Below, piece after piece: positions 18,112 through 25,945 of a stretch of 26,644 bases of DNA (the stretch's first letter is position 1; the number at the start of each line of letters is the position of its first letter). Location: positions 1 through 26,644 of IMG/VR virus record IMGVR_UViG_3300030380_003192; one strand, 5' to 3'. This DNA comes from a virus. The notes under the pieces were generated by a model. That model saw only the letters and a list, made by a program, of their open reading frames with translations, was not told the origin of the DNA and ran no database searches. The position numbers were made by a program, and so were the translations under genes.

Positions 18112-18330
18112 CCTATTTCTACGTTCATCATCTTCTTCAAAATGTAGTAGCATACACTCTTGTCTGATTCTTTCATCAGTCCATTCATATTGTGCTTTCG
18201 CAACTTTTTTTCCATCTCCATAACCCATTTTGTATGCAGTTTCCCACATAGATTTCATATGTTCTATGTTTTCAACCGTTGCAAAATAAGTTAAAGCTGC
18301 ACCTAACAAAACACATGCTAATTTATCCAT
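18085..18330 (-). CDS. Small membrane-anchored protein (81 aa)
   Basis: I start at the ATG giving MDKLACVLLGAALTYFATV; AAAGGAGAGG lies upstream with about 9 nt spacing. Residues 4-20 form a single hydrophobic helix, probably a membrane anchor or uncleaved signal. The remainder is charged, with a Gly-rich patch (YKMGYGDGKK) and an acidic tail (HFEEDDERRNR). Function unknown. Both the ribosome binding site and the start codon fall inside a 5-bp-periodic non-coding array, which is unusual. The 3' end overlaps the HNH gene tail-to-tail. Confidence 0.62.
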   Translation of the reverse strand: MDKLACVLLGAALTYFATVENIEHMKSMWETAYKMGYGDGKKVAKAQYEWTDERIRQECMLLHFEEDDERRNRLGLKGLGE

Positions 18331-18386
18331 ACCATACCTCTCCTTTCCATAGCAAACCTTGGCATACCGCACCTCGCCAAGCCAAG
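18327..18386 (-). repeat. 5-bp-periodic degenerate array A (12 units)
   Basis: On the + strand a CC or GC dinucleotide occurs at every fifth base from 18327 to 18383: twelve consecutive positions, ten CC and two GC. Units read CCATA, CCATA, CCTCT, CCTTT, CCATA, GCAAA, CCTTG, GCATA, CCGCA, CCTCG, CCAAG, CCAAG. The rest of the gap to 18426 holds GTGAT-TCGTT-ATCAC (18389-18403) and the word CGAAACCAGTTC (18412-18423), which array B nearly repeats. Confidence 0.75.
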
Positions 18387-20666: not shown

Positions 20667-21557
20667 TTAAAACTTCATTTTGTTGAGGATGTCATCTACC
20701 TTCGCAGTTACATCTTCACGCACTAAGACACTATCACGCAACTCTTCTGCTGTTAGACCAGAGATAGCGGACTCAAGTTCCTTACGTCTTAGTTCTAGTT
20801 CGGGGTCATTTGTTACATTCATGTTAGTGAGGAGTTCACACAACTCTCTCGCATTTAGTAACATAGTATCTCGAAAGATTTTCTTCTTACCATCACCCGC
20901 TACGATAAGACTCTCCTTAATGTGTAACAACTTATCATGTAAGCGTTTCCATAAATCAGCCATAGCTCCTTCAAGAGTCTTCTTGAACATAGTGTCGTAA
21001 TTAGACTGTAGCTGTTCTCTGATTTCATTCGGTACATCTACACGAAAGTCGCCTGACTGTGGTAGTGGAAAGTAATTTACACCAAAGTGAAACTTATCTT
21101 CCAATTGTTCTACTGTTGCATAATCATCACGATTGAATAAATCGCCACTGGCAAACGACTGCTTGTTAATCAAGTCTGGGTACAAGTTGAGTAGTTCACG
21201 CTTGAGTCTGTAAAACTCATCTTTGAAACCATTCAACTGTTCTACATAAGGTAGATACTGTTGGATAGTAACCAAACGCAACCCACTATCTGACCAAGGT
21301 ATCGTATGTTTGTAGTGCCAATTGCGAGCCTGACCCTCTAGCTTTTTGATTTTCTCTAACGGTTCACACTTAGTAAGCAAGTTTTTCTTAGCTTCAACAA
21401 CTCCATCTGCTGCTTTCTTGTTAGATGCAACCTCTTCTGATAATGTCTTATCAGTCTTTTTGAATTTGTATACGCCAATACTAAGTTCAACAAGCATCGC
21501 TCTCTCAGTGATTTGAGGTATATCTACGTTTACTTCTGAATGATTTAATGTTTCCAT
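20667..21557 (-). CDS. DUF3150-like partner of MoxR/VWA (296 aa)
   Basis: Mostly alpha-helical and charged. An N-terminal segment (LVELSIGVYKFKKTDKTLSEEV) precedes a KNLL-containing helix, the RNWHYKHTIPW stretch, a LPYVEQLNGFKDEFYRLKREL helix and the FGVNYFPLPQSGDFRV segment near residues 157-172. This order resembles DUF3150-type proteins, which are found beside AAA+ and VWA genes on phages and plasmids. I assign it by layout and neighbours, with moderate confidence. Its ATG shares a base with the stop of the VWA gene (TAATG) and has an AAGGAG site, so the two are tightly coupled. Likely a third subunit or substrate adaptor of the MoxR-VWA machine. Confidence 0.8.
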   Translation of the reverse strand: METLNHSEVNVDIPQITERAMLVELSIGVYKFKKTDKTLSEEVASNKKAADGVVEAKKNLLTKCEPLEKIKKLEGQARNWHYKHTIPWSDSGLRLVTIQQYLPYVEQLNGFKDEFYRLKRELLNLYPDLINKQSFASGDLFNRDDYATVEQLEDKFHFGVNYFPLPQSGDFRVDVPNEIREQLQSNYDTMFKKTLEGAMADLWKRLHDKLLHIKESLIVAGDGKKKIFRDTMLLNARELCELLTNMNVTNDPELELRRKELESAISGLTAEELRDSVLVREDVTAKVDDILNKMKF

Positions 21558-22843
21558 TACCTTCTCCTTTTAGGTTTATTAAGTTTAATTACACTGCCAA
21601 AGTTATTCATAGATGGTTCAATCGTTCCATTTGACACCACGATAAATATCGTAGGTATCGAACACCACTTGTTAATGGCTCCGACTTCGCCATCAGTTAT
21701 TACAATAAGCACATTGGGTTGCAACCCTTTCGCTTTGATAAATCGAGGCACTGTTTCGATGTCAGTGCCGCCTCCGCCGAGAGGTTTAGTAGTATGTTTA
21801 AAGTCCTTTACATGTTCGCCCTCATATACTTCGTGATACACATCACAATCCCAGTACATTATGTCCACTCGATTGATGTTCAAAGACTCTGCAATCTTCG
21901 ATGTCTCTGTCAACGCTTCGGTTGTTTCGACCCAACCCATTGAACCTGACAAGTCAATTGCAATACCGAGTGAAGGTAAAGCTTCGCCAACGTAACTAGG
22001 CATAATAATTTCTTGTGATAAGAACCTACGGTTTGGTTTACGAAATGAACTATCATTTCTGTCTGGACACAAAGCTGTCATGTAATCTTGCAACAAGGCA
22101 TAAGGGTCTAGCTTAGGTTCAAATAGTTCATTAAATATTTGCTCCTCGCCAGATGATTGGTCACCTATACCTTTGCCAGATTGAGATGCAACAAGCACAT
22201 CCCCTTGTCGATTACGTTGGTCTACTTGCTTTAAGACTTCAACAGTTTCTTCTGCGTCAAGTTGCTCCACACTATCCCAACCATGAACATCCCAACCTTC
22301 TCCATGTTCCTGACCTTGCTCTCGCTCTTCATAGATTATGTCAAAGACTTCTCTTGTGTTCATACCTCTGAATCGCTCATCAATTACACCTTGAACAATG
22401 CCTGTAGGAAACTTACAAACAATTTGTTGAGGGTCGTAGTCTTGAATTTGAAGATTGATTACATAGTCCATAGCAATGTTTGTAGTTGTTCGGCATATCT
22501 CATCAAGTTCTTTCCAGATGAAGAAATGTTTAAATGCACAATGCCACGCTTCATGTATCAAAACAAATGCAAGTTCTTTATCTTCTAGTAAGTTAACAAA
22601 CCCTGTAGAGATAGTGATGTTCAATCCATCAGCAAAAGCAATTGGGTTATCATCTTCAGTAACATTGACGTTACACAGATAGCCGCCCATACGCATAAAC
22701 TTAATGTTAGTAACTATTCCAACCACAATACGCTCGACTCGTTGCTGTGGAGTCAAACCTACTGGTATGTTCTTTTGCTCCTGTGCCGCAATCAAATCTT
22801 GCATTGATTGTTTTATCGGAGTAACGCTTGGTATTACACTCAT
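21557..22843 (-). CDS. Putative metallopeptidase with C-terminal VWA-like domain (428 aa)
   Basis: Two domains. The N-terminal DUF2201-type domain has the zincin motif LIHEAWHCAFKHF (H97, E98, H101) and the accompanying NIAMDYVIN helix (N122, D126). After an acidic, Gln/Gly-rich linker (about 170-235) comes a VWA-like domain with a complete MIDAS: DLSGS (297-301), GGGGTDIE and VITDGEVG. This family normally works with a MoxR AAA+ ATPase, which is the gene immediately upstream. Function in phages is unknown; maturation or dismantling of a protein complex is the usual guess for MoxR-VWA pairs. The AAAGGA ribosome binding site is 7 nt from ATG, and palindrome copy 4 is 20 bp upstream. Confidence 0.93.
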   Translation of the reverse strand: MSVIPSVTPIKQSMQDLIAAQEQKNIPVGLTPQQRVERIVVGIVTNIKFMRMGGYLCNVNVTEDDNPIAFADGLNITISTGFVNLLEDKELAFVLIHEAWHCAFKHFFIWKELDEICRTTTNIAMDYVINLQIQDYDPQQIVCKFPTGIVQGVIDERFRGMNTREVFDIIYEEREQGQEHGEGWDVHGWDSVEQLDAEETVEVLKQVDQRNRQGDVLVASQSGKGIGDQSSGEEQIFNELFEPKLDPYALLQDYMTALCPDRNDSSFRKPNRRFLSQEIIMPSYVGEALPSLGIAIDLSGSMGWVETTEALTETSKIAESLNINRVDIMYWDCDVYHEVYEGEHVKDFKHTTKPLGGGGTDIETVPRFIKAKGLQPNVLIVITDGEVGAINKWCSIPTIFIVVSNGTIEPSMNNFGSVIKLNKPKRRR

Positions 22844-22863
22844 ACTTATATCCTTTCAAAAAG

Positions 22864-22874
22864 TAACACTGTTA
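22864..22874. promoter_or_regulatory. Palindrome copy 4, TAACACTGTTA
   Basis: An 11-bp dyad ending one base before the stop codon of the MoxR gene and lying exactly 20 bp from the VWA gene's ATG. On the - strand it is followed by C, five T and GAAAGGA. Confidence 0.65.
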
Positions 22875-23963
22875 TTATTTAACTGTTTTACAGAAGAGAT
22901 AGTTGTTCTCTTGTGCCCAATCGATGAAAGCTTTGCAAGCCATAGAGTTCTTGTTGTTAGACTTCTGCAAAACTTTCGCAAACATACCTTGCTTCTCTTT
23001 TGCCATACGGGTGAGATACTCCAACCACTTAGGCATAGTAGAAGATGTTACTGCGTGAATAGCTTTGTGGACGGTGATAATATCCGCAACAGGGTCTTCG
23101 TGCATTTCGATTGTAGATGGGTTAGCAATAATAGCTTCCCATGTAGGTAACTTATCATCTAATTCGATAAACGCATTAAGTTCCATAGCCGCAGATTGAC
23201 CAATCAAACCGCAAAGTCCCGCAAGGGTTTTAGTAGCACCAATATCTTTTCTGTAGTCGAGTAGTTCACAAGCCATCATCATTGAACGTGGACTTAGAAA
23301 GTGTTTAACAATACCTTCTGGTGGGTTAAAAATATTTGTGTTCTTAGATTGACCCGAATCGGTATACTCTGTCATGTTGTTTGGGTGTTGCATAATGTAT
23401 GCGATACCAACAGGGTTAGCATTATTTCGCACAGCATATTCACACCACTTCTGTACAGTCGGACATCTGAAATACAAAGTAGAAAAACGATTAAACACGT
23501 GAGACTTAATAGAGTCGCCTAAGTTTAGATTTGGGTTGTTACCAGTACAAAGCACCATTGACCCTTTCTCCAAATGCAAATCACCGATTCGCTTTTCTAA
23601 GACAAGTGGTAACAACATATTCTGTACTGCCTGAGTGGCTTTTGTAATCTCGTCAAGAGCAACAATCAGTGGCTTCTTTAGATGAAACTTGAACTGAGCG
23701 TTTGGCATATACCGAGTACACTTGTTCTCTTTATCAATCCAAGGCATAAGTAAATCGCCAAGGTCAATATTCGCACAATCAATCATAGCGACTTCATGTG
23801 TTGGGTTCTTTTCTTTTAACCCATGAACCACTGAGGTCTTACCAACCCCAGGTTTTCCAAACAGCATATATGTAATGCCGTTACTTTTATCAGTCTTTTT
23901 ACCGCTGTGGTGGATAAGGTCAACTGCTCCGTCATAGTCAACTACTTGAAATGTGTCAGACAT
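22875..23963 (-). CDS. MoxR-type AAA+ ATPase (362 aa)
   Basis: Walker A is GKPGVGKT (36-43), Walker B is LIVALDEI (99-106, D104/E105), sensor 1 is CTGNNPN (about 139-145) and the VFNRF segment (R159) is a candidate arginine finger. These features and the insert LVLEKRIGDLHLEKG are typical of MoxR/CobS-like AAA+ proteins, which remodel protein complexes together with a VWA partner. The partner is the next gene. I start at MSDTFQVVD, with GGAG 7 nt upstream; the frame extends two codons further to a TTG. A 178-bp gap with palindrome copy 5 and a large hairpin precedes it, so it is probably the head of its own transcript. Confidence 0.95.
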   Translation of the reverse strand: MSDTFQVVDYDGAVDLIHHSGKKTDKSNGITYMLFGKPGVGKTSVVHGLKEKNPTHEVAMIDCANIDLGDLLMPWIDKENKCTRYMPNAQFKFHLKKPLIVALDEITKATQAVQNMLLPLVLEKRIGDLHLEKGSMVLCTGNNPNLNLGDSIKSHVFNRFSTLYFRCPTVQKWCEYAVRNNANPVGIAYIMQHPNNMTEYTDSGQSKNTNIFNPPEGIVKHFLSPRSMMMACELLDYRKDIGATKTLAGLCGLIGQSAAMELNAFIELDDKLPTWEAIIANPSTIEMHEDPVADIITVHKAIHAVTSSTMPKWLEYLTRMAKEKQGMFAKVLQKSNNKNSMACKAFIDWAQENNYLFCKTVK

Positions 23964-24141: not shown

Positions 24142-24762
24142 CTAGCCTTGTTTCACGTCAAAATTCACGGTAGAAAATCTACCAAAGGTAGGACGAAAAT
24201 CTCCCACACCTACAAGCCTACCCGCTGTGTCCAAAACCTTCTTGAACAAAACGATATCTATATATTCGGGAGTTAATATTTGTAGTATGAGTGATGCTTT
24301 CCACCCAGAGCGAATAGCGGGTCTAACTCTACTGATACTATTTCTCTGAATAGTAACCCTACGCTTATCCAAATAATCTGGCTCTTTTACACCGAGTGAT
24401 GCCAAATCAGTAATCGACACAACGCCTGCTTTGAATAAATCCATAGCAGACTTACGAGGAGAGCGTGGGTCTTTCTCAAACTTAGCCGCATGAATGATAG
24501 CTTGTCTAAGGTACTCACAAGGTAACGAGATATTACCCTTCTCATCTTTCCAGAGATACGCATCTATATTGTCAGTCTTTTTTGCCGCTGAGTTTTTAGA
24601 AGCGTTTGCTTTCTCTTCAACATCTTCACACGACCATCTGTGAAACAACAAATCAGAAGTGCCTTGAATAGTCAAATGCACCGCATATGGAACACTCATA
24701 TCTATTGAGTGCCTACCATCATTAGATGGTTTAGATACTTCTACAAGTTTAGCCTTCGCCAT
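24142..24762 (-). CDS. Conserved phage protein of unknown function (206 aa)
   Basis: I start at MAKAKLVEVS with AAGGAG 6 nt upstream. The protein has a distinctive layout: VHLTIQGTSDLLFHRW near residues 27-42, a Ser/Lys-rich loop, CEYLRQAIIHAAKFEKDPRSPRKSAMDLF near 80-110, a basic RRVTIQRNSISRVRP stretch and a glycine-rich end, GRLVGVGDFRPTFGRF. The N-terminal strand-LLxHR pattern and the C-terminal G-x-G…GRF loop recall RAMP/Cas7-type RNA-binding proteins, but this is only visual resemblance. It overlaps the upstream 86-aa gene by 14 bp and precedes the structured MoxR leader. No known enzymatic motif. Confidence 0.8.
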   Translation of the reverse strand: MAKAKLVEVSKPSNDGRHSIDMSVPYAVHLTIQGTSDLLFHRWSCEDVEEKANASKNSAAKKTDNIDAYLWKDEKGNISLPCEYLRQAIIHAAKFEKDPRSPRKSAMDLFKAGVVSITDLASLGVKEPDYLDKRRVTIQRNSISRVRPAIRSGWKASLILQILTPEYIDIVLFKKVLDTAGRLVGVGDFRPTFGRFSTVNFDVKQG

Positions 24763-25009
24763 GTTTTTCTCCTTCAAGAATGATTAACTTATTATTTATA
24801 GTTACTGATACAACATAATCGCCATGTAATTCATACTTCTCGGCAATTGCTTTTGCATATTGGACATCATCAATAAAGAATCGTTCCTCAGCATCTAAGA
24901 AAGAGATTGTTCGTCTACCATCTTCTCTTGACCAACAATCCACTTCTATCTTTTTTAACCTATCACGTTTATCTCTAAGTATTTCAGGCGACAAATGATT
25001 CGCTACCAT
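24749..25009 (-). CDS. Hypothetical protein (86 aa)
   Basis: Not recognised. The first 30 residues are charged (SPEILRDKRDRLKKIEVDCW), followed by FLDAEERFFIDDVQYAKAIAEKY and a beta-rich end (DYVVSVTINNKLIILEG). A strong AAGGAG ribosome binding site lies 6-7 nt before the ATG, and palindrome copy 6 lies 20 bp upstream. The stop overlaps the 206-aa gene by 14 bp, so the two are coupled. Confidence 0.75.
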   Translation of the reverse strand: MVANHLSPEILRDKRDRLKKIEVDCWSREDGRRTISFLDAEERFFIDDVQYAKAIAEKYELHGDYVVSVTINNKLIILEGEKHGEG

Positions 25010-25029
25010 ACCCTTCTCCTTTTAAAAAA

Positions 25030-25040
25030 TAACAGTGTTA
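25030..25040. promoter_or_regulatory. Palindrome copy 6, TAACAGTGTTA
   Basis: An 11-bp dyad exactly 20 bp from the ATG of the 86-aa gene. On the - strand it is followed by six T and then AAAAGGAG. Array B lies directly on its other side. Confidence 0.65.
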
Positions 25041-25054
25041 CTTTTTGAAACAAA

Positions 25055-25139
25055 GCTTACCGCACCAAACCAAAACACAACAAACCTAACCGAGCCTATG
25101 CTCACCCAAGCTCACCTCACCACACCGAACCGAACCTAT
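25055..25139 (-). repeat. 5-bp-periodic degenerate array B (17 units)
   Basis: From 25055 to 25139 every 5-bp unit has C as its second base (17 of 17), and the first base is C in 12, G in 3 and A in 2. Examples are CCGCA, CCAAA, CCTAA, CCGAG, GCTCA, CCACA, CCGAA. The fifth base is A or G in 15 of 17. On the - strand this reads as repeated TNNGG. It fills most of the gap 25041-25152. The adjoining word CGATACCAGTTC (25142-25153) nearly repeats one beside array A. Confidence 0.8.
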
Positions 25140-25829: not shown

Positions 25830-25850
25830 ATCGTTCTCCTTTTTTAAAAA

Positions 25851-25863
25851 ATAACAGTGTTAT
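25851..25863. promoter_or_regulatory. Palindrome copy 7, ATAACAGTGTTAT
   Basis: A 13-bp dyad (core 25852-25862), 22 bp from the ATG of the 97-aa gene. On the - strand it is followed by a T-run, A-run and AAGGAG. Array C starts 12 bp beyond it. Confidence 0.65.
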
Positions 25864-25875
25864 AAATCGTAAAAC

Positions 25876-25945
25876 CCATACCATGCAATATCTTGACCTA
25901 CCTAACCTTGGCATACCTTAACATGACATACCGCACTCAACCTCA
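25876..25945 (-). repeat. 5-bp-periodic degenerate array C (14 units)
   Basis: Units from 25876: CCATA, CCATG, CAATA, TCTTG, ACCTA, CCTAA, CCTTG, GCATA, CCTTA, ACATG, ACATA, CCGCA, CTCAA, CCTCA. The second base is C in 12 of 14 and the fifth base is a purine in all 14. AACCTTGGCATACC (25904-25917) is identical to 14 bases of array A (18355-18368). The last unit runs into the stop codon of the 67-aa gene. Confidence 0.7.

Follow-up and report, generated by a model that had tools for sequence, protein, structure and literature searches.

Between positions 25055 and 25139 of the 26,644-nt stretch of viral DNA analyzed here (IMG/VR record IMGVR_UViG_3300030380_003192, hereafter the window), every fifth base is a C, and the question is what such a periodic intergenic sequence is for. 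The window is a phage fragment that encodes a family A DNA polymerase and a primase/helicase-like protein. We consider, with a probability of about 0.93, that the periodic stretch (array B) is a vrRNA gene, encoding the guide RNA used by a phage VIPR system, with its Vipr protein encoded 0.3 kb downstream. Our confidence is high for the VIPR identity of the array, moderate for its activity, and low for its target. VIPR (Viral Interference Programmable Repeat) was described in April 2026 (PMC13142463; bioRxiv 2026.04.26.720920), and the array B locus is a new member of this already reported system. A search of one literature library found no VIPR paper besides PMC13142463.

VIPR comprises a phage RAMP protein and vrRNAs of 9–16 YNNGG repeats, in which the NN pairs define a dsDNA site with one base skipped between pairs, and it represses competing phages and satellites (PMC13142463). 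It has been proposed to be older than CRISPR and ancestral to it (PMC13142463). The system of Escherichia phage SUSP1, for which free vrRNAs have been shown, is type II of seven types, and a ribozyme-interspersed type is also mentioned (PMC13142463). Hallmarks include an RRM core, G-loop, and thumb in Vipr, an invariable 3′ tail, a vap accessory gene, and a Vipr-bound RNA of ~100 nt (PMC13142463). The unit SCNNR, as the original prediction had written it, is the VIPR unit, since it is the reverse complement of YNNGS.

The periodicity itself is well supported. Position 2 of the unit is C in 17/17 units of 25055-25139 on the plus strand, and 15 of the 17 have C or G at position 1, as a recount confirmed; the run of C every 5 bp in fact extends to 18 consecutive units (25051-25136). 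Lag-5 identity of array B (0.64–0.65) is the maximum of the window, with further elevation at lags 10, 15, and 20 (0.59, 0.54, and 0.52, respectively) and no elevation at the remaining lags. Shuffles of the same 85 bp, and thus of equal composition, never reached the run of 17 (0/200,000) or the lag-5 identity (0/20,000), and the longest C or G runs in order-2 Markov copies of the whole window were 5–9. The adjoining genes are encoded on the minus strand, where the unit reads GGYNN. A local GGYNN scorer picked out three clear arrays, each on the minus strand of the window: 25051-25136 (61 bits), 18327-18386 (48 bits), and 25876-25945 (38 bits). Background maxima were 15.6 over six Markov copies of the window and 26.5 in one Markov-shuffled copy of ~1.3 Mb of loci. 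The stretch originally delimited is therefore real, and the feature is wider than had been proposed, with two more same-strand arrays. The following features are used below:

25057-25136, minus strand: array B, predicted vrRNA tandem repeat tract of 16 GGYNN units (repeat scoring, 61 bits)
25023-25091, minus strand: probable vrRNA 3′ part or tail (alignment to the close relative L009; presumed boundary)
25025-25045, no strand assigned: palindrome AGTAACA(C/G)TGTTACT after array B (pattern search)
24749-25009, minus strand: 86-aa gene between array B and vipr (family scan)
24142-24762, minus strand: vipr gene, 206 aa, predicted RAMP, phrog_4652 (profile search and structure model)
18327-18386, minus strand: array A, 12 GGYNN units, leader of an 81-aa ORF
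25876-25945, minus strand: array C, ~14 weaker units, leader of a 97-aa ORF

No protein had been identified for the array; the gene at 24142-24762 encodes it. When a profile of the Vipr family was searched against all PDB sequences with hmmsearch, the sole match was SUSP1 Vipr (PDB 36pp), with E-values of 1.5e-7 for an 11-sequence profile and 9.5e-11 for a 53-sequence profile. An AlphaFold model built from 53 sequences (pLDDT 86), which replaced one from 11 close relatives only (pLDDT 58), best matched Cas7 of type VII and Csm3 of type III-A CRISPR (best E 7e-8, TM ~0.5). The protein also carries a glycine-rich loop, GVGDFRPTFGRF, that is conserved in the family as G-x-G-D-F-R-P-x-x-G-R. Profile match, model, and glycine-rich motif together identify the 206-aa protein as a predicted RAMP, the small homologue that a VIPR locus requires; its family, phrog_4652, is listed as function unknown.

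Array B lies in intergenic DNA flanking this gene, its end 289 bp upstream of vipr. Downstream of it on the same strand follow the 86-aa gene, vipr, and AAA+ and VWA/metallopeptidase genes. The 86-aa gene separates array and vipr, whereas the array abuts vipr in most relatives. This gene had no family match and a homologue in L009 only, and is possibly a putative accessory gene; no vap gene was recognised at this locus. A search for relatives of a 127-aa neighbour found none. The AAA+ ATPase and VWA/metallopeptidase pair (21557-23963) shares its position beside vipr with L009 and L023 only.

The association between repeat and protein extends to relatives of the 206-aa protein, which we collected from IMG/VR (81 loci) together with the named phage DSL-LC04. 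A same-strand GGYNN array lay within 500 bp of the vipr homologue in 79/81 IMG/VR loci, being upstream only in 21, downstream only in 20, and on both sides in 38; one Markov-shuffled copy of the relatives' sequence gave a single segment at the array threshold. The consensus, with position frequencies of G.92, G.87, Y.92, N, and N across 222 runs, bears out the GG(U/C)NN series expected of a minus-strand transcript. Over the 81 loci the 5-bp phase was kept while the NN positions drifted, so that the array passes the check by which the original prediction would have been refuted, a lost phase in relatives. The relatives' arrays are often much longer and cleaner than array B, in which 4/16 units have GC or GT instead of GG. 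With 16 units, array B falls in the range of 9–16 tandem units, and the 222-run consensus gives a conserved GGY and a hypervariable NN.

Comparison with L009 suggests how the RNA is divided. About 67 nt at the 3′ end of array B are near-identical in this relative, and the upstream repeats differ in the alignment; the block ends with the palindromic hairpin AAAAGTAACACTGTTATTTTTT and a T run. Such a pattern fits a variable guide joined to a constant tail, with a boundary that we infer from this alignment; the conserved block was seen in this one close relative only. The tail is predicted to fold into a 13-pair G-U-rich hairpin followed by the palindrome hairpin, with a weak z-score of −2.06. 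Rfam gave no match at the gathering threshold, and none for the array region even at E ≤ 1.

A mechanism for this phage can be proposed by analogy with the published system. The minus strand of array B would be transcribed into a vrRNA. Vipr protomers, Cas7-like RAMPs, would then assemble along it, the protein holding each GGY and the two variable bases of each unit being presented for pairing. Target DNA would be read as NNxNNx..., with one base skipped between pairs, and binding would repress the gene it targets in a competitor, presumably a phage, prophage, or satellite. The original prediction holds in kind, in that the array most likely acts as a minus-strand RNA, read as triplet plus two by a repeating protein assembly; the positions said there to drift would be a guide code of two bases rather than noise. 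Our computations cover the repeat, its phase conservation, the adjoining RAMP gene here and in relatives, and a modest 1-nt-skip excess in relatives. RNA expression, RNP formation, dsDNA binding, and repression are taken from the paper rather than computed (PMC13142463). Expression and activity of this phage's copy are inferred.

The skip excess came from a search of the decoded NN series of every array against the fetched loci, with 0–3 skipped bases and arrays masked. There were 6, 20, 6, and 6 matches of at least 20/24 at skips of 0, 1, 2, and 3, respectively, and 10, 32, 9, and 14 in a less strictly masked run. Guides with shuffled NN order gave 13, 5, and 5 matches at skip 1, compared to 20 for the real guides; the skip signal therefore rests on few guide families. 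In the best cases, one L034 guide matches the Vipr phage L031 at 25/28 positions within a 129-aa ORF, in frame and with skips at wobble positions, and another matches L031 at 27/30 where a long ORF begins. For an L082 guide, the match lies in a gene carried by L084, L087, and L092, at its Walker A-like region, and the skips again fall on wobble bases. These matches, on few independent pairs, support the published 1-nt-skip rule in this clade, and provide sequence-only support for it, drawn from pairs of guide and target within this set of phages.

We also searched for targets of this phage's own guides. Array B has the NN series TC TC GT GA GA TG GA TA TC TA TT GT TT TT GC AA, which decodes to the gapped site TCNTCNGTNGANGANTGNGANTANTCNTA. 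When seeds of 8 or 9 units were taken from each array and scanned against IMG/VR, they yielded 32 contigs for array A, 13+23 for array B, and 4 for array C, with matches outside the seed near chance. The best matches of array B were L098 (19/20) and L122 (20/20), each lying antisense to an ORF and with wobble skips; their extensions are at about chance beyond the 16-base seed, and extensions of this kind should turn up in about one such search out of ten, as estimated from the number of seed hits. No proteins common to this phage and the target-candidate contigs were detected, a GTDB scan with 10 units of array B returned zero matches, and a search of the phage's own genome fragment gave no convincing target. 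The IMG/VR matches of array A were rejected as targets, as they mostly reflect a common helix motif (EAIKLIKEI).

The alternative that survives best, though we regard it as unlikely, is that the arrays are mainly cis-regulatory leaders, in which Vipr or another protein binds GGYNN and controls its own operon or small genes. All three arrays are located in 5′ leaders, array A overlaps the Shine-Dalgarno sequence and start codon of the 81-aa ORF, and arrays of relatives often close with a terminator-like hairpin directly before the vipr start. However, the 20 relatives with an array downstream of vipr only are ill-suited to leader control of vipr, the NN series vary between phages and in some cases match other phages in gapped form, and the related SUSP1 system produces free vrRNAs (PMC13142463). 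Both roles might be combined: tentatively, and with similarly low confidence, vrRNAs may be dispersed, each built into the 5′ leader of a small, unrelated gene, and Vipr could act on competitor DNA as well as on its own mRNAs. If so, guide production would be linked to translation control. A direct effect of Vipr on the leaders of arrays A and C is possible and putative. Both arrays lie away from vipr, the arrays being spread over 7.6 kb of the window, and array A keeps its phase and nearly all of its NN pairs in L009 (6769-6828).

A hairpin with the palindrome found after array B also follows array C (25847-25864). This palindrome has 12 matches in the window, counting both strands, versus 0.21 expected. 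Seven intergenic copies carry T runs (18724, 18956, 20647, 22859, 24008, 25025, and 25847), mostly just before gene starts, and a similar palindrome is present in L023 near 10830. The copies may serve as terminators, operators, or processing hairpins.

TRAP (trp RNA-binding attenuation protein) reads RNA as triplets with a pitch of ~5 nt. A TRAP-like ring protein that mediates attenuation by reading a triplet at 5-nt intervals would agree with the triplet-plus-two spacing and with a leader position beside hairpins. We nevertheless judge this very improbable, and the comparison with TRAP made originally fails: the motif is GGY and not NAG or (G/U)AG, no TRAP homologue or TRAP-like family was found among the proteins scanned, and the arrays track a RAMP protein. 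TRAP thus differs from the array B system in protein, motif, and purpose. A degenerate simple repeat or compositional accident is more improbable still: the C-rich, G-poor plus strand of the stretch would favor one, but it is refuted by the shuffles and by a phase kept with varying NN over 81 loci. The proposed DNA array contacted every half turn was dropped for want of such a protein and for its wrong motif, and a G-quadruplex or R-loop was considered and set aside for leaving the fixed 5-nt phase and the Y at position 3 unexplained.

The guide RNA reading thus stands closest to SUSP1 VIPR among known systems. Both are phage-encoded minimal loci with a RAMP gene and a GGY/NN repeat RNA in adjacent intergenic DNA, their Vipr proteins are homologous in sequence, and the 1-nt skip code is supported in relatives of this phage. 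In contrast to SUSP1, the Vipr described here is only distantly similar, and the arrays are scattered, two of them in leaders of other genes. Class 1 CRISPR Cas7/Csm3 proteins (types III and VII) share the fold and the principle of an oligomer on RNA, and the thumbs of CRISPR RAMPs interrupt guide pairing at every sixth position; the guide here differs in being noncontiguous, with 2 of every 5 bases. A tandem-repeat scan of the window found no CRISPR repeat-spacer array, and only one RAMP gene is present at the locus.

A reading of raw sequence had thus found a VIPR guide repeat without naming the system. The present analysis adds a set of loci, phrog_4652 with 81 loci and DSL-LC04, which may overlap the paper's own set (PMC13142463), and GGYNN phase scoring provides a simple detector of these loci with almost no false matches.

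Several relatives have features of their own. At L083:2780-4180, several GGYNN arrays are separated by a recurrent element of ~100 nt (TGTCCGCTGATCGGC...ACACGAGAGACAAGCGAGG) that has no Rfam match at E ≤ 1 and may be the paper's ribozyme-interspersed VIPR type or another element. The Vipr homologue of DSL-LC04 (L021:22429-23046; OR003939.1, WJZ48083.1) is annotated as a helix-turn-helix transcriptional regulator; we place it in the RAMP family because it shares 64% identity with the window protein. L091:6301-7022 contains 143 unbroken GGYNN units, far more than the 9–16 per vrRNA reported (PMC13142463).
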